Origin: Candidatus Electronema nielsenii
GTDB lineage: Bacteria > Desulfobacterota > Desulfobulbia > Desulfobulbales > Desulfobulbaceae
Direction: 5' to 3'
Length of the DNA: 37,052 nucleotides
NCBI GenBank assembly: GCA_026122915.1
Contig: JAGIXO010000005.1
Span: 1-37,052, forward strand
Below are positions 2,709 through 27,693 of the stretch, piece after piece. The notes beneath the pieces are model-generated. The model saw nothing but the letters and a program-made list of their open reading frames with translations. It was not told where the DNA came from and made no database searches. Positions within the stretch are counted from its first letter, which is position 1. Each line of letters opens with the position of its first letter. Made by a program: the position numbers and the translations under genes.

Positions 2709-3349
<641 letters not shown>

Positions 3350-3359
<10 letters not shown>

Positions 3360-4342
3360 ACGAGCATCCCTTTGTCCTCGCCGAAGCGGTGGAGGCTGCT
3401 GTGCGCACAGTTTCGGTGCTATCGCAGGAAAAGGGGCTGGACATTTTTGTCGATATCGCGCCCTCTGTCCCGGCGATGGTCGATGGCGACAGTCTGCGTT
3501 TCCGCCAGATCATCCTGAATCTCCTCAGCAATGCGATCAAATTTTCTGAAAAAGGCCCAATTCGCATAACTGTCGTCCCGGACAAAATCGGGCCAGAGAC
3601 GATTGCGGTGCGGGTGGCGGTAATCGACCGAGGTATCGGAGTTAAGGCGGACAAAATCAGCTCGATCTTCAGTGCCTTCTCGCAGGAAGACAGTTCGGTT
3701 TCGCGCAAATTCGGCGGTACGGGCTTGGGTCTTGCTATCTGCCGCCAGCTTTGCGAGCTGATGGACGGCACGATCAGCGTACAGAGCGAACAAGGCAAGG
3801 GGACAACGTTTACCTTTGTTGTTATTTTCGGCCTTACTTCCCAAGAGTTGCCGCAGAAAAAAGTTGTTGCTTCGTTAGAGGAGATCAAGCTCCAGCCGGT
3901 GCGTATTCTGTTGGTTGAAGATAACCCGGCCAACCGCTTCCTGCTCCGGGTGGTATTAGAAAAGGACCAGCATCAGGTGATAGAGGCGATCGATGGCGTG
4001 GAGGCACTACATGTCCTGCTCGACGATGACCGTTTCGACCTGATTCTATCAGATGTACAGATGCCTCGCTTAGACGGCTACAGCCTGACGCGGCTTATCC
4101 GCTTCTGTGAACAGGGAGAAGAGCTGGATGACAATACCTCTGATAAATTAGAAGCCAGCTTGATTGACCGATTACGCCGCCGCTTGCACGGTCGGCACCG
4201 CTTGATCATCGCCATGACCGCCAATGCTATGAGTGGAGATCAAGAAAAATGCTTTGATGCAGGCATGGATGACTACTTGACTAAACCTATTGACAAAAAA
4301 CAGCTCGCTTGCACTCTGCGTCGCTGGCTGCCTGCGGCCTGA
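3350..4342 (+). CDS. hybrid histidine kinase, C-terminal part (HATPase_c + REC)
   Basis: N-box [24 protein letters not shown]-boxes [46 protein letters not shown], then REC domain [14 protein letters not shown]...[17 protein letters not shown]...MTANAM...DDYLTKPID. Confidence 0.9.
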
Positions 4343-12513: not shown

Positions 12514-13722
12514 TTATGATCCTTGAACTCTTTCATTAAGTTCCTGTCCGAACCACACCCACAGCCCGTAAATCATTTGACAGGCAACAAGAGCGAACAG
12601 CACAAGAAGAAATGCAAGCGGACTGCTGGCTATACTCTCTGTCCATCCAAGAGCCGTTGCTAGTAAACCGGCAAGCAATTTCAGAGTAGGACTCAGAACC
12701 GGATGCGTTGGCTCATCTTTGCCTCTGCGTAAGGTCAGTTCTAACAAAGCCATTGCGATCAAGGCGCAGCCAATCGCAACAGCGACAAGCTGCCGCACCT
12801 CTACAGCAAGCAGGTCATTTCGGCCAATTGCAGATGAAATTCCAGCCCCGGCAGCAGCTATAGCCATGACCAAGGGCAAATGCAGATAGCCCCAAGCAAA
12901 CCCCCATCCTGTTCCGGGCTTTGGTGGGCGGCGACCGATAAAATCAAAATAAATCCACCAGAAGCCAAAACCAAGCGCCACACCCAAGGATGCCTCCAGA
13001 AAAAGCGGCAGTGTCAGTTGCCGCACCTCGGCCAAGCCATTGACAACGCCGACAACCATCTCACCAAGGACGATAAGAACAAGCAGACCAAATCGCTCCG
13101 GTCGTTTCGATGAACTTAAACGAGGCAATTTCATCTGATGCGCTGCTGTTGTCAATGGTGTGAGCAAATCGGAACACAATGCAGCAGCAAAAAGCCAGAA
13201 GCCAAGATATGTTCCGATAAAAGCTGCGGGCAATGACAGAGCGGCTGAAATAATAAATCCAATGATGAATCTGCTTCCTGTTGGTCGAAATAAAGGAATG
13301 TGGAAAACTGCCCGCATCCATAACAAGGTCAGAATAAGACGAGCGGTTGTGTAAGATAAAACAATACCTTGAAATCCTTCCTGAACACCATGATGAGCAA
13401 AAACAGACAATCCTATCACCGGCAGCATCAGCAGGAAGGTGAACAGACGAATTTCAAGTCCGTTGGATTCAAACCGCTCATTATAATTTGTGAATCCTAT
13501 CCATATCCACCAAGCTGGTATGAACAACATGGAAAATTCTGCTGCGCCTTGCCATGATAAATGCTCATGCAGACCATGCGATATCTGCGCAATGGATGCG
13601 ACAAAAAACAGATCGAAGAAAAGTTCGAGCCACGTCACTTTTCGATGCTCTCCCTGTTCTTCTTTATAATTGAGTGCCGGCAATTCCCAAAGAATACGTT
13701 TAGCCATAAACTGCTCATTCAA
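12514..13722 (-). CDS. low temperature requirement protein A (LtrA) family membrane protein
   Basis: RKVTWLELFFDLFFVASIAQISHGLHEHLSW and WWIYFDFIGRRPP are LtrA-family motifs; many TM helices. Confidence 0.88.
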   Translation of the reverse strand: MNEQFMAKRILWELPALNYKEEQGEHRKVTWLELFFDLFFVASIAQISHGLHEHLSWQGAAEFSMLFIPAWWIWIGFTNYNERFESNGLEIRLFTFLLMLPVIGLSVFAHHGVQEGFQGIVLSYTTARLILTLLWMRAVFHIPLFRPTGSRFIIGFIISAALSLPAAFIGTYLGFWLFAAALCSDLLTPLTTAAHQMKLPRLSSSKRPERFGLLVLIVLGEMVVGVVNGLAEVRQLTLPLFLEASLGVALGFGFWWIYFDFIGRRPPKPGTGWGFAWGYLHLPLVMAIAAAGAGISSAIGRNDLLAVEVRQLVAVAIGCALIAMALLELTLRRGKDEPTHPVLSPTLKLLAGLLATALGWTESIASSPLAFLLVLFALVACQMIYGLWVWFGQELNERVQGS

Positions 13723-13737
13723 CAGTTGAATAAAACA

Positions 13738-13774
13738 TAAAAAAACGGTTGGACACTGGAAGCGTCCAACCGTT
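13738..13774 (-). terminator. strong intrinsic terminator at the 3' end of the long minus-strand cluster
   Basis: - strand: AACGGTTGGAC-GCTTCCAGT-GTCCAACCGTT followed by a T-rich run; perfect 11-bp stem (13744-13754 / 13764-13774), 9-nt loop. Confidence 0.85.
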
Positions 13775-13814
13775 CACGCAAGTTTTGATATCGCACATCA
13801 AAGTTGCCGAGCCA

Positions 13815-14636
13815 TCACCATCCGTAGCGTTTCAATCCTTTTTCCAGCACCTCAATCATCAGCTCGCCGACCAGCCTAGAATCTTGCGTGGAACGTCCGG
13901 TCAGAAACGGATAATCGAGAATTGTGGAAATAGTATGGCCCACGCCGCCGTGATATTTTCCATCTGGCCCGGTGGCATCGCGCAGAATGTATTCCAGCGG
14001 ATAGAACGGCGGCCCGAAATTCAGGGGACTCGTCAGGAAGCCCGTGCCGTCCTTGTAGTCATATTCACGCGCATGACCGGTGACATGCTTGCCCCAGATG
14101 ATGCTCTTGCGGTCAGTCCAGTCGCGGGCAAACGCCAAGCAGGTGACGCTGTAGCATTCCGCCACAATCAGCTTGCCTTGCGCAAGGAAACCGAGAATCA
14201 CGTCATGCAGCCGCTCGTTGTTGACCATGTCCACCATCGGGCCGCTGCCGCCAGGCAGCAGGAGCGCGTCGTATTGCTCCAGCTCCTTCCAGCATTGGTT
14301 GCGCTTGTTGTGATACGCTTCCAGCTCAAGCCCGAAGTTTGGAGAATTGAAATACGGCATCTGCGGAAACCATGCCGAGAGATTGACCGGATTGTCCAAT
14401 CTCGTGGATTCATCCACCTCTCTGGTACGTTTCGCATAATGCTCATCCGTGACCACTTTGTGCAGCGGCGGATCAAAATAGCCGACCTCCATGCTGGGCG
14501 GCAAAGCATGGGCGCGTTTGCCGGTCGGAGTCATGAACACTGTTTCGTAGCCCTTGGCATCCAGCACATCCAGCGGGCCGACCAGCTCTTCGCCCCAATA
14601 GCCCCATTCTGACAAACAGCAGAGAATCTTTTTCAT
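13815..14636 (-). CDS. DJ-1/PfpI family protein (class I amidotransferase-like)
   Basis: MKKILCCLSEWGYWGEELVGPLDVLDAKGYETVFMTPTG; DALLLPGGSGPMVDM; nucleophile elbow IVAECYSVTCL. Internal ATG at 14636 preferred over 14717. Confidence 0.85.
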   Translation of the reverse strand: MKKILCCLSEWGYWGEELVGPLDVLDAKGYETVFMTPTGKRAHALPPSMEVGYFDPPLHKVVTDEHYAKRTREVDESTRLDNPVNLSAWFPQMPYFNSPNFGLELEAYHNKRNQCWKELEQYDALLLPGGSGPMVDMVNNERLHDVILGFLAQGKLIVAECYSVTCLAFARDWTDRKSIIWGKHVTGHAREYDYKDGTGFLTSPLNFGPPFYPLEYILRDATGPDGKYHGGVGHTISTILDYPFLTGRSTQDSRLVGELMIEVLEKGLKRYGW

Positions 14637-14664
14637 CCTGATGCACCCTCCAATTTTTATTAAT

Positions 14665-15093
14665 TCATTCCAGCGGCACTGGATTTTTTTCGTCAATGTA
14701 CCCTTGGGCCAGTTCAATAATGTTGCCTTCCGGGTCGGCGATCCAGACTCCGCGCCAGCCTTTCAGCCAAGCATCAAAGTTGAACGGCCCCAAGGTAACG
14801 CAGGCATCACCGCCCATTTCAGCCAGCTTATCATCCACGCTGTCCACGGCAAAGGCTATGTGCCGCCAGCCTGGATACCACTGCCCGTCCTCCTTCATCG
14901 ACGGCACAGGTGATTCCTCCTTGGCCTGAAACAGTTCCAGATAAAAATCGCCTGATTTCAGAAAAATGATCTGCGTGTCGCCAACCGGCACGACCCGCGC
15001 CCGCCTGAAGCCGAAATGCCTACAGTAAAACCGCTCAATGACGGCCATGTCCTTGCAGGCGATGCCGACATGATTGAATCTCGCTTTCGTCAC
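14665..15093 (-). CDS. VOC/glyoxalase superfamily protein
   Basis: FNHVGIACKDMAVIERFYCRHFGFR ... HIAFAVDSVDDKLAEM ... GVWIADPEGNIIELAQ. Confidence 0.92.
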   Translation of the reverse strand: MTKARFNHVGIACKDMAVIERFYCRHFGFRRARVVPVGDTQIIFLKSGDFYLELFQAKEESPVPSMKEDGQWYPGWRHIAFAVDSVDDKLAEMGGDACVTLGPFNFDAWLKGWRGVWIADPEGNIIELAQGYIDEKNPVPLE

Positions 15094-15103
15094 AAAAGCC
15101 TCC

Positions 15104-15673
15104 TTATCGCTCGCTCAACATGTCAATGATCCTGCGGGCAAAGAGATGGCAATGCCCACCTGTGCGTCCGGTGACAAGATCGCCGTCCACCACGACATCC
15201 TCATCTGTATAAACCGCGCCGTAGTTTTTCGCGTCGCCAATCAAGTTGTTGTGGCAGGTCAGCCGTCTTCCCTGAACCACTTCAGCAATCGGCGAGGTCA
15301 GCCACAAACCGTGACAGATAATCCCTTTAATGATGCTTTTTTCGGCAAAAGCCCGTTGAAGGAATGCAGCAGCAGGTGATATGCGGTTGACATCTTCGGT
15401 ATATCTGAGACGGTCTGCAACAATCGCGGAAGGGACGATAATAGCTGAGAAAGAACGAAGCGTTTCATCATCCATGTCCTCAAAGCTCTCGCGGCATTCA
15501 AAAGGAACCTGCCATTCATGACCTTTGAATATCAGCGAATTCTGTCCCCAGAGACGGGTTAGAAAATGCAGTTCTGCCCCTTCTTCAGGAAAGCGGTGCT
15601 CGTAATAGAAGATTTCCTTCTCATAGTAATCGCCCTCCATTAGAATGGCGATCTTCTTTCCTTGCAATCTCAT
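15104..15673 (-). CDS. DJ-1/PfpI family protein
   Basis: KIAILMEGDYYEKEIFYYEHRFPEEGAELHFL; IIKGIICHGLWLTSPIAEVVQGRRLTCHNNLIGDAKNYGAVYTDEDVVVDGDLVTGR. Confidence 0.93.
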   Translation of the reverse strand: MRLQGKKIAILMEGDYYEKEIFYYEHRFPEEGAELHFLTRLWGQNSLIFKGHEWQVPFECRESFEDMDDETLRSFSAIIVPSAIVADRLRYTEDVNRISPAAAFLQRAFAEKSIIKGIICHGLWLTSPIAEVVQGRRLTCHNNLIGDAKNYGAVYTDEDVVVDGDLVTGRTGGHCHLFARRIIDMLSER

Positions 15674-15687
15674 TCGGATATCCTTTT

Positions 15688-16122
15688 TTACAGCCGGGCA
15701 AAACCTGGCGCATATTTGAACGGCTCAACTGTGGCGTTATAGGTGACAATCTCCAGTCCGTAGGCGTTCTTGCCCGACGCTCTGACCGTCCACTGCTGCG
15801 TGGCATCTATTGACACCCGCTTGCTCTTGGCTTCCGGGGCCACCCACCAGCTGGCCTGCCATCCGACCACCACATTCACGACCGCCGTTTCGCCTTCAAG
15901 ACGCGCATCGACTGTCTGAACATAATGATTTTCATCGAAAAAAATATTGGTGACCCGGTCGTACCATGCCTTGAAGCTTTTGAAATCCCGAATATCACCG
16001 TCCGGGAACTGCATGTTCAGACCTTCATCGGCCAAAAAGGCATATGCATCAGCCAGTGGAACATGAAAGTCCAAGGCACGATACCAAGCTGCGACAAATA
16101 TCCTGATATTCTCTTCGTTCAT
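15688..16122 (-). CDS. SnoaL/NTF2-like domain protein
   Basis: MNEENIRIFVAAWYRALDFHVPLADAYAFLADEGLNMQFPDGDIRDFKSFKAWYDRVTN; internal start at 16122 preferred because the longer ORF overlaps the ADH gene. Confidence 0.75.
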   Translation of the reverse strand: MNEENIRIFVAAWYRALDFHVPLADAYAFLADEGLNMQFPDGDIRDFKSFKAWYDRVTNIFFDENHYVQTVDARLEGETAVVNVVVGWQASWWVAPEAKSKRVSIDATQQWTVRASGKNAYGLEIVTYNATVEPFKYAPGFARL

Positions 16123-16156
16123 ACTGTAATCCTCATGTCTCCTCTTTTCAGGAAAG

Positions 16157-17362
16157 CTAACAAGCTGATTTGAGGATATGGAGAACATCTTCTTCCTCAA
16201 GTTTCTTGAAAGTTCCCATTGTGCCAAAACGAAGTGCCCGCTTTGCAGCGATCGGCAGTATATCTGGATCAACCCCGGCTTCACTCCAATTCGTTGGAAT
16301 TCCGAGTGAAGACCAAAACTCAATGGTCTTGTGAATTCCTTCCATGCCGAGTTCAATATCACCCCTCCCGTTACGTGGGATATTCCATACTTCCGAGGCA
16401 TAGCGTGCGAAACGTGCCGGATGATCGCCAATTACGTATTTCATCCAAGCTGGGAAAATAATAGCCATGCCCAAGCCATGATTGAGGTCTGTTAACGCTG
16501 TAATCTCATGCTCAATAAAATGAGAAGTCCATTCTGGGATCACACCGGTAATGTTCTGTGCACTGCATGACCAGAGAGCCGCATACATCAATTCTGCACG
16601 GGCCGCATAATCTTCTGGATACGAAATAACACGAGTACCACAGGTGATAATTGTTTTCAGAGCACCTTCTTTCATTCTATCCAGATATTCCGTGTTTTCG
16701 GACTGGCTGAAGTATTGCTCAAAATAATGCGTCATCATATCAGCTATACCGTATGCGGTCTGGGCTGCCGACAAGGTATAGGTCAAGGTTGGATCACAAA
16801 TCGAAAATCTCGGATAAAATACCGGATTCATATGCAGCAGTTTCTCGTGCGGTGTGCCTTCCTCCCATTTCGTTACGACAGAAGTTAAATCGAACTCAGA
16901 TCCGGTGCCTGCCTTTGTTATCACTACACCTATCGGAAGTGCCTCACGAGGGATATTCTTCTCGGCATCAGGCACACGCCTGAGAAAATCTGAGAAAGCA
17001 TTCCAGATATCAAAATCTGATTTTGCACCAGCAGCAATTGCTTTCGCAGTATCGCTCACGCTTCCGCCGCCAACAGCGAGAATAAAATCAATCTTCTCCT
17101 CATGGCAGAGATCAATGCCTTTGTAAACCATATCCATCCTAGGATTCGGATGCACTCCTCCAAAATCAATCCAAGAAATATCTGCATCTTGAAGCAGATT
17201 GACGATCCTGTCATAGACACCATGCTGCCTGATATGCTTTTCTCCGTATACAAATAGGACTTTTCTGCCATACGGAAGAATTTCTTGAGCAAGATTATTA
17301 ATCTGCCCATTGCCAAACAAAATTTTTGTCGGCGAATGATAAACAAAATTTTCCATCTGCAT
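16157..17362 (-). CDS. iron-containing alcohol dehydrogenase
   Basis: FVYHSPTKILFGNGQINNLAQEI; ILAVGGGSVSDTAKAIAAGA; GTGSEFDLTSVVT; DLNHGLGMAIIFPAWMKYV (metal-binding His region). Confidence 0.95.
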   Translation of the reverse strand: MQMENFVYHSPTKILFGNGQINNLAQEILPYGRKVLFVYGEKHIRQHGVYDRIVNLLQDADISWIDFGGVHPNPRMDMVYKGIDLCHEEKIDFILAVGGGSVSDTAKAIAAGAKSDFDIWNAFSDFLRRVPDAEKNIPREALPIGVVITKAGTGSEFDLTSVVTKWEEGTPHEKLLHMNPVFYPRFSICDPTLTYTLSAAQTAYGIADMMTHYFEQYFSQSENTEYLDRMKEGALKTIITCGTRVISYPEDYAARAELMYAALWSCSAQNITGVIPEWTSHFIEHEITALTDLNHGLGMAIIFPAWMKYVIGDHPARFARYASEVWNIPRNGRGDIELGMEGIHKTIEFWSSLGIPTNWSEAGVDPDILPIAAKRALRFGTMGTFKKLEEEDVLHILKSAC

Positions 17363-17370
17363 ATCCTCCT

Positions 17371-18234
17371 TCAGGATTGAATAATTCCTATCTGACGCAT
17401 TAAGCTGAAATCATTTTCGTTGACATGAACTGTCAGTATTTTCCCCTTTGACATTGTAAAAATGTCAATACCATAATCCTCTATGAATTTTTCTGTAGGA
17501 GCTGCTCCGAGAAATTCTCCTTTGTGCGTTCCTGTTATCTTCCAGCGTACGGCGACCTTGTCGCCGTCAACCGCTTCCCGGTCAATACTGAATTTGATAT
17601 CCGGAAACGCGTTTCTAAGGTATTGAACAAAACCTTTGAACCCTTCAGGCCCGCGAAACGGTTCGGGTTGAGTCGGGATAATGAATTGAAAATGAAGATC
17701 GATAATCTCATCAATCACTTCAAGATGCCCTTGATTCATTACCTCATTGATATAGCGATGAGCGACTGCCAAATTGGCCTTCTCATCTGGAGGGGGCGGG
17801 GCGACCGGAAAAGGAAGCACCCCAAGCTGAACCATAAGCCCAACTGTATCCTCGTTTACCAACGCCTCAACAATCTTGCCATTTTTTATCCGATGCCAAG
17901 TCATTCCATCAATCTCAAACTTCTTGCCTGATGCTTGGATATCCCCTTTGACAGTATGCAGTGCTCCCCCTGTATGTGTGCCACCACCACGCCAGCGTGT
18001 GACAACGGTGTCTCCACTGGAGACCATGTCCTGAACATGAATGTAAAAATCAGAAAAGCAGGAATGCAGCATCATCACTAAATCCTTAAATCCATCTGGA
18101 CCTCTGTATGATTCAGGATGTGTCGGCAATGTAAATATGAAATCAGGAGACAATAATTCGTAAAGCGTGTCCATGTTCGCCATATTCATGATTTCTGTGA
18201 AATAGCGCCTTGCTATAAGTCTGTTTTCTTCCAT
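17371..18234 (-). CDS. tandem SnoaL-like ester-cyclase-family protein (two NTF2-fold repeats)
   Basis: Repeat 1 ARRYFTEIMNMANMDTLYELLSPDFIFTLPTHPESYRGPDGFKDLV; repeat 2 AHRYINEVMNQGHLEVIDEIIDLHFQFIIPTQPEPFRGPEGFKGFV. Confidence 0.88.
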   Translation of the reverse strand: MEENRLIARRYFTEIMNMANMDTLYELLSPDFIFTLPTHPESYRGPDGFKDLVMMLHSCFSDFYIHVQDMVSSGDTVVTRWRGGGTHTGGALHTVKGDIQASGKKFEIDGMTWHRIKNGKIVEALVNEDTVGLMVQLGVLPFPVAPPPPDEKANLAVAHRYINEVMNQGHLEVIDEIIDLHFQFIIPTQPEPFRGPEGFKGFVQYLRNAFPDIKFSIDREAVDGDKVAVRWKITGTHKGEFLGAAPTEKFIEDYGIDIFTMSKGKILTVHVNENDFSLMRQIGIIQS

Positions 18235-18284
18235 AGCAATATCCTCCTCCTGTCCTTGCTGTGTTTTTTTTGAAAAAATTAACC

Positions 18285-18668
18285 TTACTGATTTAACTGC
18301 TCAAGAAAAGGCTTGAACGGCACAGAATCATGGAAGTTTGACATATAGGCAATTTTTCCATCTCTAAAACGAAAGTAATTCATTACTTCAGCCTCTATTG
18401 GCACACCAGCAGCATTGGCTGCAGAAATATGAGAAACAACAGCTCCTTCATTTCCGCTGACTATGATATACCTTGGAATATTCTGAAACTTTGAATACAT
18501 CTTCCCCATTCCCTGCATCATTGGCCGCAAAGCTGCCAAGCCTTCAATATGCCCAGCCAGCTGCTCATCCATGACCATGTCATCGGCGAACAAATCGCAC
18601 CATTTATTCCAATCACCATTATTGGCATGCACGTAATACATCTCAATCAGCACTTTTGTTGTCATCAT
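18285..18668 (-). CDS. SnoaL/NTF2-like domain protein
   Basis: MYYVHANNGDWNKWCDLFADDMVMDEQLAGHIEGLAALRPMMQ...NYFRFRDGKIAYMSNFHDSVPFKPFLEQL. Confidence 0.85.
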   Translation of the reverse strand: MMTTKVLIEMYYVHANNGDWNKWCDLFADDMVMDEQLAGHIEGLAALRPMMQGMGKMYSKFQNIPRYIIVSGNEGAVVSHISAANAAGVPIEAEVMNYFRFRDGKIAYMSNFHDSVPFKPFLEQLNQ

Positions 18669-18703
18669 CGCCTCCCTTCCTTATGGTTTGTCTTCAACAG
18701 CAG

Positions 18704-20389
18704 TCAGCGCGGCACCTGACTGCCGATCATCATGTCAATCAAAAATGGTCCATCATGGGCCAATGCTTTTTCAATAGCCGGATGCACCTGATCCGGTGTT
18801 TCCACTTTCACCCCTGGCACACCCATTGACTGAGCCAAACTGACAAAGTCAATAACTGGATCCTTCAATGAGAAGGAATCAGGGAAGGCATGTTCCTTAA
18901 CTCCGACCTGATCTTTCCAGTATTGCAGAACATTGAGCTTCAAGAGCATGTAGCTCTGGTTGTTGCAGATGATGAACTTCGCCCCAATTTTGTGATGCGC
19001 CGCTGTCCACAGGGCTTGAATAGTGTACATGCTGGCACCGTCGCCGCTCACGCTGATGACCGTTTTCTCAGGGTTGGCTATTTTTGCTCCCAAAGCACCG
19101 GGAATGCCAACTCCCAGCGAGCCGCCGCGCACTTGGAAGAAATGGTTGGGCTTAGTCGGTGGACAGTAGCGGGTCAGCTGCGTGGAGGAAGTCAGAGCTT
19201 CATCAAAAATAATCGCATCCTCCGGCAGCAAGGCAGCCAGCTCTTCCATAAAGCGGGAGGGATGGAGCGGAATTTCATCGCGCACCGCGCTGTCTGCTGC
19301 AATCTGAGCAGCCCGTTTTTTTTCTTTGGCAACCCGCAGCTCTTCCGCACGGCCCGCAGCGGCCTGCTTCTGCTCGGCAGTCATGACCGTTGCAAGCGCA
19401 TCGGCGAGCAGCTGCATGGTCAGTTTCGGATCGCTGACGACACCGAGGTCAACCGGATGGTTCTTGGCGATTTCATGGGCATTCAAATCCACATGAATGA
19501 TTTTTGCATCAGGGGCATAAATGTTCTCCAACCTGCCGAAGACTTCCGGCACCATGTACGTGCCGCAGACAAAATTCACATCACCCTTGGAAGTGATCGG
19601 ATAGCTTGCCTCGCCGAACATGTGACCGGTCTGCCCCTGATACAGGGGATGAGTGTAGCTCATATTCAACTCGCCGGAATCCACGCTCCAGACCTCCGCG
19701 CCCAGCAGCTCGGCCAGCCGAGTCAGCTCCTCCTGAGCTCCGGAATACGCCACACCGTCGCCCATGAAAATCATCGGCTTGCGGGCGTTTGCCAGCAGCT
19801 CAACCGCCTGCTGGATGAAATCATCGCCCGGCACAACGCGAGTCGAGGGAATGAACGCCGGATACACCTCTTCCACCACCGGCATGTCCAAAAGATCAGC
19901 AGGCAGACAGACATAGACCGGCCCCATCGGCGGAGTGGCGGCGATTTTCACTGCCCGGCGCAGGACGCGCAAAGTGGATGCGGCATCCGTCACCATAGTG
20001 GCCCATTTTGTGACCGGCTTGGCAAAAGCTACCAAATCGCCGTACATCTGGGCTTCCAGCGGCAGATACTTCAGCCCGGCATCGCCGCCGATGATGACCA
20101 AAGGCGCGTGGCCGCGCATGGCTTGGTACATCGCGCCGATGGTGTTGCCCAAGCCGGGCGAGCTGTGTATCTGCACCAAGGCCGGTTTTTTTGTCGCTCT
20201 GGCATAACCATCGGCCATCATCAAAGCCACTGACTCCTGCAAGGTCAGGATGTACTTCATCTGCGGATAGGCGGCCAAGGCATCAAGAAAGCCCTGCTCG
20301 ACTGTGCCGGGATTGCCAAACATATGATCCATTCCGTCAGCAAGAAACTGCTCGATGATGGCGAAACGGTATGTTTTTTTATCGTTCAT
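18704..20389 (-). CDS. thiamine-pyrophosphate enzyme, benzoylformate decarboxylase/acetolactate synthase-like
   Basis: FGNPGTVEQGFLDAL, LQESVALMMADGYARAT, QIHSSPGLGNTIGAMYQA, GSLGVGIPGALGAKIANPEKTVISVSGDGASMYTIQALWTAAHHKIGAKFIICNNQSY (GDG...N TPP motif). Confidence 0.93.
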   Translation of the reverse strand: MNDKKTYRFAIIEQFLADGMDHMFGNPGTVEQGFLDALAAYPQMKYILTLQESVALMMADGYARATKKPALVQIHSSPGLGNTIGAMYQAMRGHAPLVIIGGDAGLKYLPLEAQMYGDLVAFAKPVTKWATMVTDAASTLRVLRRAVKIAATPPMGPVYVCLPADLLDMPVVEEVYPAFIPSTRVVPGDDFIQQAVELLANARKPMIFMGDGVAYSGAQEELTRLAELLGAEVWSVDSGELNMSYTHPLYQGQTGHMFGEASYPITSKGDVNFVCGTYMVPEVFGRLENIYAPDAKIIHVDLNAHEIAKNHPVDLGVVSDPKLTMQLLADALATVMTAEQKQAAAGRAEELRVAKEKKRAAQIAADSAVRDEIPLHPSRFMEELAALLPEDAIIFDEALTSSTQLTRYCPPTKPNHFFQVRGGSLGVGIPGALGAKIANPEKTVISVSGDGASMYTIQALWTAAHHKIGAKFIICNNQSYMLLKLNVLQYWKDQVGVKEHAFPDSFSLKDPVIDFVSLAQSMGVPGVKVETPDQVHPAIEKALAHDGPFLIDMMIGSQVPR

Positions 20390-20394
20390 TTTAC

Positions 20395-22452
20395 TCAGGC
20401 TCCTTGCTGCTTCTGTTGTCTGGCCACATCAGCGTTTTTGTTTTCTGCTCCCCATCTGATCATCAGCATGGTGATGTCATCTGACTGAGGTTCTTGCACT
20501 GCATGTGCTCTGACCTCACGCAAAATACCGTCAATTACTTCCTTGCAGGGTTTGTCTTGCATACTGAAAAAACTTTCAAGCAATCTTTTATCGCCGAACA
20601 ACTGCTCTTCTTTGTTCATGGCTTCTGTTACGCCGTCAGTGCAGAGGAAGATTGCTTCGCCCGGCGGAAGAACAGCCGAAAATTCCTTATAGCTGATGCC
20701 AAGCGTGGAACCAACCGGAGGACCGCTCACATCTTTTCTGAAGAAAGGGGCGTTGCCGCCATTTGTGAACAGAGGCTGCGGCGCATGACCGCAATTCACA
20801 TAACATAACTCACCAGTAGTGACATCAAGAATACCAAAAAATAAGGTGACGTAATCTAAATTTTGATTGTCATAGCAAAGAAATTTATTGAGCTGGTTAA
20901 TTATTTCTCCAGGTGAATCACATCTATCATTTTGAAGGAAGCTGATGTCGATTAACTTTTTAACAACCGTCATCATTAAAGCAGCAGGAACTCCCTTGCC
21001 AACAACATCTCCAATCGCAATGCAGATATGCTTTTCGTCAATTTCAAAGAAATTATACAAATCACCGCCAACTTCCCGTGCAGGAAATATTTCCGCATGA
21101 ATTTCAATCTTCTTTTCTGGAGGGCAGGAAAAATTTCTTGGCAAGCTGCGATGCTGGATATCTCTGGCGACATTTAGTTCTTTTTCTATTCCTAACAATT
21201 TTCTATGCGATTCAAACAACTCAGAAATTCTTACAAACCAATTTAGCCAATATTCTGGTACATCTGGAATGACTATTTTTTCATTCTTTGTTTCCTTTTC
21301 TATATATCTTACTAATTCTTCAGCAGGATATATTAATTCTTTAAAAGTTATTTTTTTAGTATAAAAAATAATTATCAACAAAGCAGTCAATAGAATAAAA
21401 AATACAGTCGCTACTCTTGAAATAATCAATTTAAAATAAGTACCTTTTTCGGAAATAAAAATAATCCTCCAACGAGGAGCATTTTCTATCCTATTCCAAA
21501 TATATAAATAAGAATATATTCTCAATATACTGAGAGGTTCTTGTTCTTTATTTAATATATTTTCTTGCATTTTACCTGGGATAATATCTTCTATTTTGTA
21601 AATTTTTTCAAAAGAAAGATCGGGGGAAGCAATCACCTGGTTATATTCATTTACAATTAAAAGTGACCCTTTTGTATCATCAAAATTATTTACATATTTA
21701 TTTAGATATCCACTAAGTTTCTCTAATGTAATATCAATTCCTATAACACCAATAAGTTTATTATCTACATAAACTGGTTTTAATGCTGTAAACATTAATC
21801 CTTTTCCGAATACATCGTAATATGGACCATATAACCAGATTTCTATTTTTTTGTTTTTTTCAAAAAAGATCTTGCATTTTTCAAGGAAAATCGATTGTTT
21901 TTCAAAATTCTTAAAACTGACTAGTTTTGATGTAGTCCATGGATAAATATTCTTAAAATTATTTACAGACAAATAGTATATCCATTCAGAATTTTTTATA
22001 TTATGCTTTGTTGACTCAAACAAAGGATTCAAACTTATTGACATATTAATCTCATCTCTTAATTTTACAGAAAAATCAAGAGGATTCCCTTCTCCTATAA
22101 TATTTCCTGTATATTTCCTGTATTGATATGGAATGTTATCAAGACTGTATATATTATCATTCATTGATAATGAATTTAAAATCTTACTATTACCAGAAGA
22201 CTCAAGTCCTATAAAAAAGTTTTCCGCTTTAATTTGCATTGAATTTATATTTGAATTTATATTCAACATAAAATTATCAACAGCCATTGTTCTTGATTTA
22301 ATTCCTTCAATTATTCTTGTGTTATTATTGCTTATTATTTGATGTATCTCGATCAATGCAAGAAAAATAGATATAAATAATACAACTGTAAACACAATGA
22401 ACATTTTTCTGTTGTATCGTGATATAAAATTTTTTTTTGAATTTTTCATCAT
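20395..22452 (-). CDS. SpoIIE-type PP2C serine phosphatase with extracytoplasmic dCache-like sensor (RsbU/IcfG-like)
   Basis: TM1 FIVFTVVLFISIFLALI, sensor with PVYVDNKLIGVIGIDITLEKL, TM2 VATVFFILLTALLIIIFY, then EKELNVARDIQHRSLPRNF, GGDLYNFFEIDEKHICIAIGDVVGKGVPAALMMTVV, YVNCGHAPQPLF, FLCTDGVTEAMNKEEQLFG, SDDITMLMIRW. Confidence 0.93.
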   Translation of the reverse strand: MMKNSKKNFISRYNRKMFIVFTVVLFISIFLALIEIHQIISNNNTRIIEGIKSRTMAVDNFMLNINSNINSMQIKAENFFIGLESSGNSKILNSLSMNDNIYSLDNIPYQYRKYTGNIIGEGNPLDFSVKLRDEINMSISLNPLFESTKHNIKNSEWIYYLSVNNFKNIYPWTTSKLVSFKNFEKQSIFLEKCKIFFEKNKKIEIWLYGPYYDVFGKGLMFTALKPVYVDNKLIGVIGIDITLEKLSGYLNKYVNNFDDTKGSLLIVNEYNQVIASPDLSFEKIYKIEDIIPGKMQENILNKEQEPLSILRIYSYLYIWNRIENAPRWRIIFISEKGTYFKLIISRVATVFFILLTALLIIIFYTKKITFKELIYPAEELVRYIEKETKNEKIVIPDVPEYWLNWFVRISELFESHRKLLGIEKELNVARDIQHRSLPRNFSCPPEKKIEIHAEIFPAREVGGDLYNFFEIDEKHICIAIGDVVGKGVPAALMMTVVKKLIDISFLQNDRCDSPGEIINQLNKFLCYDNQNLDYVTLFFGILDVTTGELCYVNCGHAPQPLFTNGGNAPFFRKDVSGPPVGSTLGISYKEFSAVLPPGEAIFLCTDGVTEAMNKEEQLFGDKRLLESFFSMQDKPCKEVIDGILREVRAHAVQEPQSDDITMLMIRWGAENKNADVARQQKQQGA

Positions 22453-22484
22453 ATTATATATGTATAATTTGCAATTGATTGTTT

Positions 22485-22910
22485 TTAACAAAAATTTACA
22501 TTAAGACAATTTACATTAAATCCATCCATATATTCATATCTAAATTCGTCAACGCCTGTTATTGCAAGATAGATACCGAGTCCTCCGATGCGCCGCTCTT
22601 CAGTAGGTTTACTCAAACACGCTTTCTCCATCTCCAGCTTATGTCGTGGATCAAAAGGAACACCTTGATCCCTCAGTTGAATAATCAGAGAGTTTTTTTT
22701 AATTTCACAAGCCATGAATATTTTCGCGTCCTCCTCGTTCAGACCGCTGTAGAGGATAATGTTGGTTGCAATCTCGTCCACCGCCAGCTGAAGCTTGTAG
22801 AGCTTCTTTTTATCTATCGGCAAACCGGCGGCAGCGGTAGCCACATAATCCCGCATGTCCTTCAGTGCATCCAAGCTGACCGGAAATGCCTTTTCTTCTG
22901 AGAGCGGCAT
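22485..22910 (-). CDS. HATPase_c anti-sigma-factor-type serine kinase (RsbW/SpoIIAB-like)
   Basis: LQLAVDEIATNIILYSG (N-box), IIQLRDQGVPFDP, ERRIGGLGIYLAITGVDEFRYEY (G-box). Start 22910 has GGAGGAGCC upstream. Confidence 0.9.
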   Translation of the reverse strand: MPLSEEKAFPVSLDALKDMRDYVATAAAGLPIDKKKLYKLQLAVDEIATNIILYSGLNEEDAKIFMACEIKKNSLIIQLRDQGVPFDPRHKLEMEKACLSKPTEERRIGGLGIYLAITGVDEFRYEYMDGFNVNCLNVNFC

Positions 22911-22961
22911 GGCTCCTCCAAGGCCAAGGCGGCGGAAACACTCCACCCCTTGGCCGACGAA

Positions 22962-23303
22962 TCAGAACTTTTCTACAACAGCTGCGTCGTAGCTGTCTAA
23001 CATGGTCACGCTGTGCTCCAGACCGGTCATAGTGATGGTGTCAACAACCTGCTCTTGGGCCTCGATCACGTAAATATCCACCGAGCTGCCGAGCTTCTGC
23101 TTGGCAAAAACTAAAACTCTCAGACCTGCGCTGGCCATGAAGGACAGGCCGCCCAGCAGCAGAGCAACGCGTTTGGCCTTATTCGCAATAGCTTGTCCGA
23201 TAAGCCCTTCAAATTCTCGATAAGTGCTGGAATCCAGCTTGCCGCTCAGAGTTATTCTCGCAACACCATTCGAGGTCATATCCAAAGATGATTCAAAACT
23301 CAT
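22962..23303 (-). CDS. STAS domain anti-sigma factor antagonist
   Basis: MSFESSLDMTSNGVARITLSGKLDSSTYREFEGLI...LLLGGLSFMASAGLRVLVFAKQ; start 23303 with AGGAGA upstream (alternative start 23327). Confidence 0.9.
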   Translation of the reverse strand: MSFESSLDMTSNGVARITLSGKLDSSTYREFEGLIGQAIANKAKRVALLLGGLSFMASAGLRVLVFAKQKLGSSVDIYVIEAQEQVVDTITMTGLEHSVTMLDSYDAAVVEKF

Positions 23304-23323
23304 GTTCCATTCTCCTGTTGTCA

Positions 23324-25519
23324 TCAATTGTTCTTCCTTCCGACCAGAACAAACACTGAACGCCCGCCTGCAATGACCTGATGCTGATCATCCAGCACCG
23401 GCTCCTCGCCATGCGCAAAAATATCCTGCGGCGAGGCCATGCTGGTGTTGACCGCCATGCGCCATGTGTATTCAGGCGGCAGGACAGGCAGCTCAAACGG
23501 CAGGGCATCCCAGTGCATGTTCATGGCCACGTAAATGAAATCATCTGCGCCGTATTCTTCTTTCTTCTTGACATACTGGCCGTTGAGCATGAAAGCGACC
23601 ACATTGCCGCTCCAATCGGCATTCCATGCTTGGGTGCCGTGCCATGTGATGTCGGCATAGCCGGTGCCTTTCCAGTCCTGATTGCTGAAGTAATGGCTGT
23701 TCCGCAGAATCGAATGAGCGTGGCGGAAGGCGATGATCTGCTTGAAGAAGCGCAGCAGCTCGCTGTTCTTTTCCGTCAGCGACCAGTCCAGCCAGTTCAG
23801 CTCATTGTCATGACAATAGGTGTTGCTGTTGCCGTACTTGGTGCTGCCGACCTCGTCGCCTTGCAGGATCATCGGCACGCCTTGGCTGACCATGAGCATG
23901 GTCACGGCGTTTTTGATCTGCCGCCGCCGCAGGGCGTTGATGCCCGGATCGTCGGTCTCGCCTTCCCAGCCGCAGTTCCAGCTGTTGTTGTCGTTGTCCC
24001 CGTCCTGATTATTTTGTAAATTTGCCTCGTTGTGCTTGCCGTTGTAGGCCACTGTATCATACAGGGTGAAGCCGTCATGACAGGAAATGAAATTGATCGA
24101 GGCGGTTGGCCCGCGCGACCCGTACAGGCCCGGCGACCCTTGCAGCACTTGGCTCATCGCCCCGGCCTGTCCTTGATCGCCTTTCAGGAAACGGCGCAGG
24201 GTGTCGCGGCTCTTGCCGTTCCATTCCGACCAGCGGCCATAGTTTGGAAAGGAGCCGACCTGATACAGCCCGCCTGCGTCCCACGCCTCGGCAATCAGCT
24301 TGCATTTGCCCAGCACCGGGTCAAAGGCCAAGGCCTCCAGCAGCGGCGGATTGTCCATCGGCGCGCCAAATGCGTTGCGGCTGAGGATGGAGGCGAGATC
24401 AAAGCGGAAGCCGTCAATGTGGTACTCAGATGCCCAGTAGCGCAGAGCGTCAAGAATCATGCCACGCACAATCGGGTCGTTGCAGTTGAGAGAATTGCCC
24501 GTGCCGCTGAAATTTTGGTAGTATCCTTCCGGCGTGAGCATGTAGTAAGTCTGATTGTCAATTCCCTTGTAGGAAATGACCGGTCCGCGATGATCGCCTT
24601 CCGCCGTGTGGTTGAAGACGACATCCAAAATGATCTCAATGCCGTGCCGGTGCAGCTCCTTGACCAAGGTTTTGAGTTCATCAGCGACCATGGTGCCATC
24701 GCCGGTTTTGCCGGTCGCCGCAAAGCCTGCCTTTGGCGCGAAGAAGCCTACGGTGGAATACCCCCAGTAGTTCATCTTCACCCATCTGCCTGTGGCCTCG
24801 TCGTATTTGGAGAACTCGAACTCATCAAACTCGTAGATCGGCATCAGCTCGACGCAGTTGATGCCCAGCTCTTTGAGATAGGGGATTTTCTCCCGCATTC
24901 CGGCAAAGGTGCCTGCCCGGCCTTCCCGCACCCCGGATGACGGATGCTTGGTGAAGCCGCGCACATGCGCCTCGTAGATCACCAAGTCTTCCTTGGGGAT
25001 TTCCGGCGGCCTGTCGCCTTCCCAGTCAAAGTCGTCAAAAATGATCCGGCTGCGGTGCGGATAAGGATCGCTCCAGTCCGGCATCTTGCCCCATTCGTCG
25101 CGTCCGCCGATGGCCTTGGCGTAAGGATCCATCAGGGTTCTGGCCGGATCAAAGCGGAAGAAGCCCGGCTTGCCCTGCTCGCTGTGCGGATAGGCCGGAT
25201 TGTCCATGCGGAAGCCGTATTCGATCTCCTCATGATCCAAATCCAGCACGGTCATGGTGAACACATTGCCGATCCGAAAATCAGCCCAGTCCGGCTCCCT
25301 GCTGGCCGCTTTGAGGAACTGGCCCCGGAACGGGATCACAGCATACGGCTCCCGCTCGCCCCGCCGGAAGAGCAGCAGGCAGCAATAGCTGGCGTTGCGG
25401 GAGAAGACCGAAAAATTGATGCCGCCTGGCACGAGCGTGGCCCCGAAAGGATAGGGCTTGCCGGGCCTCAGCTTGAACTCTTGGAAAAGATGGGTTGGAT
25501 GAACGTCAATCCTGTCCAT
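23324..25519 (-). CDS. glgX: glycogen debranching enzyme GlgX (isoamylase family, GH13)
   Basis: GKPYPFGATLVPGGINFSVFSRNA; EAHVRGFTKHPSSG; YWGYSTVGFFAPKAGFA; DVVFNHTAEGD; DGFRFDLASIL; LIAEAWDAGGLYQVG; FISCHDGFTLYDTVAYN; MLMVSQGVPMILQGDEVG. Confidence 0.95.
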   Translation of the reverse strand: MDRIDVHPTHLFQEFKLRPGKPYPFGATLVPGGINFSVFSRNASYCCLLLFRRGEREPYAVIPFRGQFLKAASREPDWADFRIGNVFTMTVLDLDHEEIEYGFRMDNPAYPHSEQGKPGFFRFDPARTLMDPYAKAIGGRDEWGKMPDWSDPYPHRSRIIFDDFDWEGDRPPEIPKEDLVIYEAHVRGFTKHPSSGVREGRAGTFAGMREKIPYLKELGINCVELMPIYEFDEFEFSKYDEATGRWVKMNYWGYSTVGFFAPKAGFAATGKTGDGTMVADELKTLVKELHRHGIEIILDVVFNHTAEGDHRGPVISYKGIDNQTYYMLTPEGYYQNFSGTGNSLNCNDPIVRGMILDALRYWASEYHIDGFRFDLASILSRNAFGAPMDNPPLLEALAFDPVLGKCKLIAEAWDAGGLYQVGSFPNYGRWSEWNGKSRDTLRRFLKGDQGQAGAMSQVLQGSPGLYGSRGPTASINFISCHDGFTLYDTVAYNGKHNEANLQNNQDGDNDNNSWNCGWEGETDDPGINALRRRQIKNAVTMLMVSQGVPMILQGDEVGSTKYGNSNTYCHDNELNWLDWSLTEKNSELLRFFKQIIAFRHAHSILRNSHYFSNQDWKGTGYADITWHGTQAWNADWSGNVVAFMLNGQYVKKKEEYGADDFIYVAMNMHWDALPFELPVLPPEYTWRMAVNTSMASPQDIFAHGEEPVLDDQHQVIAGGRSVFVLVGRKNN

Positions 25520-25522
25520 GTC

Positions 25523-25864
25523 TCAGCCCAGCCCTTGGAAACCGGCTTCAACAGTATCGAAGACTTGAAAAAAGGGCAGAAACCCGGTCGCCTCCATGTT
25601 GTCCCTGATGCCGTCGGGCAGCGCGGCCAAAGCGACAGTTTTGCTCTGCCCCTGCTGCGTCTGCTGATGCGTGACCAGCATGGCCCGCAGCCCTGCGCTG
25701 GACATGAACGAAACTTGGCTCAGGTCAAGCAGCACTATGTCTGCCTCACACAGAACTTCCAGCATCTTTGTTTGAAAGGCGGGCGCGGTCTTGCCGTCAA
25801 TGAAGCCGCAAGTTATGACCAGTGTCACCTTGTCTGCCTGTTTGACAGTTATCTCCATGTCCAT
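25523..25864 (-). CDS. STAS domain anti-sigma factor antagonist
   Basis: VTLVITCGFIDGKTAPAFQTKM...IVLLDLSQVSFMSSAGLRAMLVTHQQ; conserved phosphoacceptor-type SSAGL. Confidence 0.92.
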   Translation of the reverse strand: MDMEITVKQADKVTLVITCGFIDGKTAPAFQTKMLEVLCEADIVLLDLSQVSFMSSAGLRAMLVTHQQTQQGQSKTVALAALPDGIRDNMEATGFLPFFQVFDTVEAGFQGLG

Positions 25865-25866
25865 GC

Positions 25867-27693
25867 TTATTTTCCTCCAGTCGGCTCAATCTGTACTTTC
25901 ACCGTCACCCGCTCGCTGATATTGTTGAGGGAGACGGTCAGTCTGTCTGCGTTGAAATGCTTGTATTGCTTGTCATCCACCCAAACTTGGCTGATGCGGA
26001 CGGTGCCTGCGGGCAGGATGTCCGGCGCGACCCGCAGCAGGTTGTTCGGCAGCACGCCCGGCAGCGGCTTGAAATGGAGCGTCAGCGGCTTTTTGGTGAT
26101 CAGCAGATTGGTGCAAACCTGTGCTAAATAAGCCAGTTCGCAGGAATGATAACCGCTCATGGAGTGGCTGCCCTTCAGCCGCTCGTTGCCCATCAAGTAA
26201 GGGATGCCGTTAGCCAGCACGTTGAAATAGACAGCCCCGCCCTCATGATCCGGGAAGAAGGCGTTGTAGAAGGCTGAGGATTCTCTGGCGATGCGCAGAT
26301 ATTCCTCGTCACCCAGCACTCCGTGCAGAATGAGATAAGCGAGAATGCCCTGCTCCTGCTGCCACCACGCCTTGCGGTCATGAAAGCCCATGCGGTGGCA
26401 GGTTTCGCCCTCGCGCAGCTTGCGCTCCATGACATCATACCAGCCGCCGCGCTGAAGGTCACAGCCCACTTTGGGCATGACCTCAGCGATTTTCCGGGCA
26501 AACTCTTCGTATTCCTTTTTGGGCAGCTCGCCGAACATCCGCATCAGGTTCCAAGCAATTTTCAAATTGTGGCCGACCACGCCCCGGTTTTGCTGCCACA
26601 TATAGGTGGTGTCATGCGACCAGTCTTCATGAAATTTTTCCTGTACGAACGGGCTGTTGTCGTAATCAGGGAAATATTTGACGATAGTGTCAAAAGTGTA
26701 TTCCAGCATCCTGCCGTAGCGGTGATCGCCGGTGGCAAGATAGAGGTTGATCAGATAGGCCGGGGCGTGGTCGCCGACCGAATTCCAGTTCTTCTTGGCG
26801 CGGTTGGCTCCGAGCGAGGCGCTGCGCGGGTCAAGGGTGATTGGGTCAAGGTGTGAGAAATAGCCGCCTTTTTCCTTGTCCAAGAAGAAACGGTCAAACA
26901 GTTCCACCGTCTGCCGCGCATCTTCAAGAATGCGCGGATCACCGGTGACGCGGTAGGTCTGCACCGGACCAGCCAAGGCATAAATCTGTTCATAGGCAGG
27001 AATGGTATCAAAATCATCGTAGAATCCTGAAGCAAGGATTTTGGTTTCCCGTTTTCCTTGCACATCAATGCCATGATACCAGTAGGTGACACCCTCATCC
27101 ATATCAACAAAGCGCATGTGCTCACGCAGATATTCAGTCCCTTTCTCGGCGCCTTCAAGGAAACGCTCGTCGCCGGTCAGCATGTAGGCTGAGGCAAAAC
27201 CATAGACCAAGCGGGAGATGGTATCTGTCTCCTGCTTGTAGTTGTCTTGCTGCTTTTTACCATCCAGCGTGATGATCGTTCTGTAATTCTTGTAATCAAC
27301 AGGTCCGTCGCCAAACTGCGCCTTCAGATAGAAATCAGCAATAGCATGAATCTGCTTGACCCACCAATCTTGTTTTTCAAACAGATATTCATCAAGTCTT
27401 GCTCCGCTGAAAACTAAATACTGCGCCTCAATGGCATATCCGTTTGTCTCAGGATAAAAAATGCCATAGACAAAAATATGTCTTCCAGCCTCCAGCATGT
27501 CGCGCATCTGCTCGCCGCACTTCTGGCGAGGCTCGTTCAGATTATTGGCAATCCATGCGTCTGTGCTTGATGAAAATTTAACTGCATACTCACGATCATC
27601 AGAGGTCTTTAGGGTAAATATGTCGCTGCCTCTGTCAAATGAGGAGACGTATCCAGATATAGTATCTGAAAACTCAAAGTTTATCTTGTTCAT
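25867..27693 (-). CDS. N-acylglucosamine 2-epimerase (AGE)-family-like protein, probable (alpha/alpha)6-barrel, with an extra N-terminal domain
   Basis: SRLVYGFASAYMLTGDERFLEGAEKGTEYLREHM; HRYGRMLEYTFDTIVKYFPD; VVGHNLKIAWNLMRM; RKAWWQQEQGILAYLIL; EGGAVYFNVLANG are AGE-like repeats. Confidence 0.8.
   Translation of the reverse strand: MNKINFEFSDTISGYVSSFDRGSDIFTLKTSDDREYAVKFSSSTDAWIANNLNEPRQKCGEQMRDMLEAGRHIFVYGIFYPETNGYAIEAQYLVFSGARLDEYLFEKQDWWVKQIHAIADFYLKAQFGDGPVDYKNYRTIITLDGKKQQDNYKQETDTISRLVYGFASAYMLTGDERFLEGAEKGTEYLREHMRFVDMDEGVTYWYHGIDVQGKRETKILASGFYDDFDTIPAYEQIYALAGPVQTYRVTGDPRILEDARQTVELFDRFFLDKEKGGYFSHLDPITLDPRSASLGANRAKKNWNSVGDHAPAYLINLYLATGDHRYGRMLEYTFDTIVKYFPDYDNSPFVQEKFHEDWSHDTTYMWQQNRGVVGHNLKIAWNLMRMFGELPKKEYEEFARKIAEVMPKVGCDLQRGGWYDVMERKLREGETCHRMGFHDRKAWWQQEQGILAYLILHGVLGDEEYLRIARESSAFYNAFFPDHEGGAVYFNVLANGIPYLMGNERLKGSHSMSGYHSCELAYLAQVCTNLLITKKPLTLHFKPLPGVLPNNLLRVAPDILPAGTVRISQVWVDDKQYKHFNADRLTVSLNNISERVTVKVQIEPTGGK

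Follow-up and report, generated by a model that had tools for sequence, protein, structure and literature searches.

A 37,052-nucleotide stretch of the Candidatus Electronema nielsenii genome (assembly GCA_026122915.1, contig JAGIXO010000005.1, positions 1 to 37,052), in the following called the window, carries a partner switch with glycogen enzymes and, directly downstream on the same strand, a tail of eight genes. The switch half is of the icfG cluster type (slr1852-slr1862 in Synechocystis), a cluster whose link with glucose and carbon metabolism goes back to the 1990s, and the complete arrangement is a widely distributed, previously undescribed extension of this known core. We read it, with a probability of roughly 45%, as an extended icfG-type operon, i.e. 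a partner-switch-gated unit for α-glucan mobilisation with co-inherited carbonyl enzymes. The extended version reveals which enzymes travel with the icfG switch. Fusions between its AGE and STAS proteins lead us to expect a specific interaction and an output other than a sigma factor, which is rare for a partner switch. As the module occurs in about ten phyla, including the culturable Dyadobacter, Runella, Spirosoma, Nostoc and Streptomyces, what its AGE and DJ-1 genes do can be tested.

The switch core is an icfG-type cluster

The window shows the icfG-type order AGE-STAS-GlgX-STAS-kinase/phosphatase, with all genes adjacent and on the minus strand. The first core gene encodes a 608-aa AGE-family sugar 2-epimerase/isomerase (25867..27693; Pfam GlcNAc_2-epim), with which most AGE genes from loci with a tail in other phyla share 58-65% identity. 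Its structural model, partly of low confidence, is closest to the folds of cellobiose 2-epimerase and Runella glucose-2-epimerase and has additional N- and C-terminal beta domains. It is followed by a STAS protein of the anti-sigma-antagonist type (STASa, 25523..25864; Pfam STAS), the glycogen debranching enzyme GlgX (23324..25519; TIGR02100 at 624 bits, narrowly below the cut-off of 641 bits) and a second STAS protein (STASb, 22962..23327; Pfam STAS). Both STAS proteins have the phosphorylatable serine that an icfG-type cluster requires, in SSAGL for STASa and in ASAGL for STASb; among stand-alone copies, the SS of STASa is kept in 45/45 and the serine of STASb in 38/39. Next comes an RsbW/SpoIIAB-type HATPase serine kinase (22485..22946; Pfam HATPase_c_2) with an intact ATP site (N-box E58/N62, D93 and GGLG, in 24/24). 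The core ends with the IcfG equivalent, a SpoIIE/PP2C-type phosphatase with a membrane Cache-type sensor (20395..22491; Pfam SpoIIE at 149 bits, weak dCache_1), whose start may lie nearer to 22452. The N-terminal sensor half of this phosphatase is far more AT-rich than its surroundings (G+C content of ~0.38 over 20001-22000), which suggests a swapped sensor domain.

In Synechocystis, the icfG cluster comprises the kinase Slr1861, the STAS proteins Slr1856 and Slr1859, the IcfG phosphatase and an isoamylase, and the relations between kinase, phosphatase and STAS proteins were measured experimentally (PMC12329169). There, slr1852-1862 is treated as a single salt-repressed operon that includes the AGE gene slr1855 (PMC8670252). 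Synechocystis PCC 6803 thus shares AGE, STAS, GlgX, STAS, the SpoIIE-type phosphatase and the RsbW-type kinase with the window. The original prediction, made from the letters of the window, knew of no named system with this composition. In the case of the switch this does not hold, because the core is the icfG cluster and has been described as one operon; in the case of the extension it does, and our search of open-licence papers found neither the extended cluster nor AGE-STAS fusions described.

Regarding the boundary between core and extension, cyanobacterial loci with the core alone lack the thiamine pyrophosphate (TPP) enzyme, the ThiJ-like protein, the NTF2/SnoaL set, VOC and the GMC or iron-containing alcohol dehydrogenase (Fe-ADH), with Synechocystis itself judged from the literature only. 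Most of these loci have a DJ-1 gene immediately upstream of AGE, and DJ-1 therefore belongs to the cyanobacterial core. In the window, DJ-1 is instead part of the downstream tail, a difference in position and not in gene content, and its place before AGE is not a defining icfG feature. The extension proper consequently consists of TPP, ThiJ, NTF2/SnoaL, VOC and a redox enzyme. Some core-only cyanobacterial loci also contain a carboxymuconolactone-decarboxylase gene and a very conserved protein of ~190 aa (L106-L110, L112-L114, L117, L119, L120). This protein had no Pfam match in the one copy tested, stands behind EthD-like domains by fusion in some loci, and is probably the slr1852 family.

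The extended cluster recurs across phyla

The TPP enzyme of the tail belongs to a distinct subfamily with members ~50-75% identical. In a plasmid protein search, this subfamily was found at 49-66% identity, with a sharp break to other TPP enzymes at ~32%. The TPP neighbourhoods on plasmids of Nostoc, Runella, Deinococcus, Gemmobacter and Streptomyces contained varying subsets of the module, drawn from ThiJ-like, DJ-1, VOC, NTF2/SnoaL, AGE, STAS and GlgX. Scanning the GTDB species genomes for the subfamily yielded 80 loci, in Cyanobacteriota, Bacteroidota, Chloroflexota, Pseudomonadota, Deinococcota, Planctomycetota, Actinomycetota, Myxococcota, Omnitrophota, Nitrospirota and Verrucomicrobiota. 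One further record among them, marked as contaminated Acetivibrio alkalicellulosi (L075, VLTH01000003.1), has the full core and tail; its phylum assignment is untrustworthy.

Gene maps were drawn with family profiles that combined each window protein with its homologues. Of the 87 collected loci, 45 had five or all of the six tail families, even though contigs were truncated. Tail and partner switch stood together in one locus in 24 cases, a count that is too low owing to the 10-kb flanks and contig ends and too high owing to near-identical Dyadobacter loci. The proposal of a conserved module tied to the partner switch and the glycogen enzymes, with its catalytic residues kept, is thus borne out: the tail is conserved next to the switch. 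The core genes were also tightly adjacent, with AGE next to STASa and STASa next to GlgX in 25/26 cases each, and STASb next to the kinase in 22/23. Around other TPP enzymes from the window's phylum, 13 control loci contained none of the set, except for a single 23-bit VOC match and generic short-chain dehydrogenases/reductases, some of the contigs being short (5.6-19.8 kb). The individual families are common, as a chance neighbourhood would presuppose, but the counts already refute chance, with the set recurring in about ten phyla and absent from the controls; its probability is practically negligible.

The AGE type was present in 19/244 cyanobacterial genomes. The strict TPP subfamily occurred in 4/19 genomes with the AGE core (the fourth being G395, with its tail in locus L014) and in 0/20 without it, and a weaker ThiJ-TPP pair stood beside AGE in two further cyanobacterial core loci. 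Conversely, 12/12 tail genomes tested had an AGE gene. That the tail is part of every icfG cluster was rejected, as TPP is missing from most cyanobacterial cores. On Nostoc plasmids, Nif11/NHLP leader-peptide genes were seen beside the cluster (L001, 14537-15197; L003, 3063-3779).

AGE-STAS fusions suggest a metabolic target

In loci without separate switch genes, we found AGE open reading frames (ORFs) of 700-790 aa with a C-terminal STAS domain (L005, L017, L018, L027, L028, L074, L076, L081, L083, L085, L086, L090, L116, L118, L121). When loci with enough flank were compared, 8/8 fused loci had no separate STAS, kinase or phosphatase, and 40/40 unfused loci had a separate STAS gene. The fusion thus replaces the separate STAS genes, which suggests that the switch acts on the AGE enzyme. 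The phosphoserine was retained in 6/15 alignable fused STAS domains, the others having E, P, D, K, A, T or I. A third, divergent AGE group has neither fusion nor separate STAS. STAS-like matches of 36-42 bits on AGE-overlapping ORFs in high-GC loci were judged spurious and removed by score.

Gene fusion is evidence, not proof, and at the level of sequence it indicates that STAS and AGE may physically work together. In a bolder form, which we put forward tentatively as a real possibility, the partner switch would gate a metabolic enzyme and not a sigma factor. The unphosphorylated STAS protein would then be a detachable subunit of AGE (perhaps with GlgX), made permanent by fusion and loss of the phosphoserine in some lineages, and the tail would be an undescribed pathway for glycogen-released sugar. 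MlaB in MlaFEDB is a STAS protein with direct control of a target other than a sigma factor (PMC7367683); this target is an ABC ATPase, whereas the one proposed here is a sugar enzyme.

The RsbVWU and SpoIIAA-AB-E switches, among the closest known systems, likewise combine in one operon a STAS protein with a phosphorylatable serine, a HATPase kinase and a PP2C phosphatase. In contrast to them, no sigma factor gene was seen in the operon here, two STAS genes flank GlgX, and sister loci have STAS fused to a metabolic enzyme. The window might instead have a classical sigma-factor partner switch that frees an alternative sigma factor, with the enzymes being neighbouring members of its stress regulon and not a single pathway. 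We consider this rather unlikely: the list of recurrent neighbour families, read by eye, showed no sigma factor, and AGE and GlgX persist in many tail loci without the switch, where STAS is fused to the enzyme. A transcriptional output is nevertheless documented in Synechocystis, where the icfG kinase Slr1861 binds the sigma factor SigC and phosphorylates the STAS proteins (PMC12329169). Moreover, ethanol raises the slr1853 and slr1854 transcripts (butanol also that of slr1854) and salt lowers slr1852-1862 (PMC3564720, PMC3726282, PMC8670252), and sigma-70-type genes exist elsewhere in the window genome.

Tail enzymes and their catalytic residues

The tail consists of eight genes, all on the minus strand (13815-20389), as confirmed by the sequence and an ORF check; genes, order, strand, tight spacing and the strong terminator at the end were all as originally predicted. 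Intergenic gaps read from the sequence are 8 to 50 nt, and the gap between the SpoIIE phosphatase and the TPP gene is 5 nt (20390-20394) rather than the six given before. Seven of the eight proteins have a Pfam match.

The first gene (18704..20389) encodes a benzoylformate-decarboxylase-like TPP enzyme, which according to family searches forms its own subfamily. Positions E52, H75, D450 and N477 are conserved, and the window enzyme is 75% identical to Anaerolineae homologues. Benzoylformate decarboxylase (MdlC) is its closest solved and curated family, with the catalytic Glu and His retained; it remains a separate subfamily, scoring 318 bits against the NCBIfam equivalog cut-off of 493 bits. 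ThiJ is immediately upstream of TPP in 77/85 other loci having both, whereas in the window the gene for the ThiJ-like large DJ-1 relative is the last of the tail (13815..14636; E17-C161-H188 conserved).

Two SnoaL genes follow the TPP gene, one for a 127-aa SnoaL_2 (NTF2-like) protein with D34, H40 and H113 in 15/15 (18285..18668) and one for a tandem double SnoaL protein identified by family searches (17371..18234). What had been called a third SnoaL protein (~15688..16122) lacks a Pfam match in the window copy; its AlphaFold model (pLDDT 95) does show an NTF2-like fold, and it is kept in about 60 loci. The model matches ketosteroid isomerase-like proteins, scytalone dehydratase-like 3ef8, the bile-acid dehydratase 4leh and LinA. 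With the NTF2-fold dehydratases (scytalone dehydratase, LinA, BaiE) it has the fold in common at an identity of only 10-14%. D18 and H66 are invariant or nearly so, and their spacing of 48 residues equals the Asp-His spacing of LinA and BaiE. The protein is a putative dehydratase that may act through D18/H66. Six loci of Chloroflexota and Bacteroidota (L002, L012, L036, L049, L051, L059) contain four to seven SnoaL/NTF2 genes in tandem within the cluster.

A natural-product pathway, in which SnoaL cyclases, GMC, EthD and a TPP carboligase would yield a secondary metabolite, could draw on this expansion of SnoaL copies in some loci. Polyketide pathways contain SnoaL arrays, EthD and GMC proteins, and the leader-like genes lie close to two Nostoc loci. 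We hold it to be improbable, since few partners are as constant as AGE and GlgX and no recurrent polyketide synthase or peptide synthetase was noticed on reading the neighbour families by eye.

In the case of the redox enzyme, the window has an Fe-ADH of the YqhD/butanol-dehydrogenase group (16157..17362), assigned by family and structure matches. It misses the YqhD equivalog cut-off (NCBIfam; 257 against 645 bits) within the same broad group, and its nearest solved structure is 7w9x. The enzyme is present as predicted, but it is peculiar to the window genome: no homologue was found in any other collected locus, and it was rejected as a conserved member of the module. The redox slot is variable, being occupied by a GMC oxidoreductase (H442 and N484 conserved) in most loci and in some by an aldo-keto reductase or a zinc alcohol dehydrogenase. 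The rest of the window genome, a 69%-complete assembly, was searched for a GMC oxidoreductase, and none was found.

The remaining proteins are a DJ-1/PfpI protein of the YhbO type (15104..15673), with the Glu-Cys-His catalytic set of a DJ-1/PfpI glyoxalase III or deglycase (E20, C120 and H121) present in all readable copies and a score under the curated subfamily cut-off, and a VOC/glyoxalase-fold protein (14665..15093). The latter has the four metal ligands of the glyoxalase I type, H/Q-E-H-E, as H8, E53, H78 and E127; position 8 is Q in place of H in 12/44 relatives, and its best curated family scores low (41 bits, cut-off 140). As the original prediction proposed, the tail may serve in reactive-carbonyl detoxification.

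Proposed mechanism

What we observed of the extended icfG-type operon is the set of genes and their order, conserved between phyla, with catalytic residues intact and with AGE fused to STAS in some loci; the working of the switch and the reaction sequence are what we infer. Firstly, the sensor phosphatase would dephosphorylate the STAS proteins, which the kinase would phosphorylate again. At least one STAS protein would then bind and directly gate the AGE/GlgX enzymes, making both the release of sugar and its isomerisation dependent on the signal. Secondly, the released sugar would be oxidised, in most genomes by the GMC enzyme, and the NTF2/SnoaL proteins could then dehydrate it. DJ-1 and VOC proteins would deal with the resulting dicarbonyls, the TPP enzyme would decarboxylate a 2-keto acid to an aldehyde, and in the window genome the YqhD-type Fe-ADH would reduce that aldehyde.

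Several points weigh against this reading. The NTF2, DJ-1, VOC and GMC families are chemically promiscuous, and the proposed order of steps is therefore only one of several possible. The fused copies derive from few events, the AGE tree requiring at least 2 to 3 changes. The core is rare in the window's order (3/58 genomes, the two others carrying tail genes beside the core), and the SigC-binding kinase of Synechocystis has to be set against it as well. Finally, the window groups with Trueperaceae and Deinococcus in the AGE tree (98%) and with Anaerolineae in the TPP tree (99% SH-aLRT, the Shimodaira-Hasegawa-like approximate likelihood ratio test). With such different nearest relatives, core and tail may come from different sources and have been joined by separate transfers; sampling may also account for the difference.

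The same enzymes could instead serve a dedicated catabolism of an oxidised sugar (a keto-sugar or sugar lactone) that feeds carbon supply or fermentation and not detoxification, by oxidation, dehydration to a 2-keto acid, decarboxylation and reduction. A GMC oxidoreductase, putative NTF2-type dehydratases, a TPP decarboxylase and a reductase form a chemically sensible chain, and Nostoc has a gluconolactonase-family gene and a glucose 1-dehydrogenase nearby. Yet carbonyl repair is the more typical setting of DJ-1 and VOC pairs, and no recurrent sugar kinase, aldolase or sugar transporter was seen in the cluster when read by eye; we regard this route as distinctly unlikely.

Origin of the window copy and flanking features

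In the case of the window genome (assembly of 1.76 Mb, 69% complete), neither the AGE core nor the TPP subfamily was found in the 6 same-family genomes searched. The module is thus patchy, and the window copy was likely acquired horizontally; a mobile module is the best reading.

At the end of the tail lies an intrinsic terminator on the minus strand (13743..13775) with a 15-bp stem, a 3-nt loop and a T run, and it is strong (minimum free energy of -23.8 kcal/mol, z = -5.9). A promoter and terminator scan of the minus-strand gaps from 27.7 to 13.8 kb found no convincing terminator. About 20 nt past the terminator starts a gene for an LtrA membrane protein (12514..13722, minus strand; Pfam LtrA). 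Six further loci (L036, L039, L045, L052, L071, L088) likewise have LtrA inside the cluster or beside it. LtrA is therefore a probable accessory member of the module, and the terminator before it may be an attenuator instead of the operon end. Further away, at 2709-4342, a response regulator-HisKA ORF is followed by an overlapping HATPase-receiver ORF, apparently a hybrid kinase broken in two by a frame change, unless a sequencing error is the cause.

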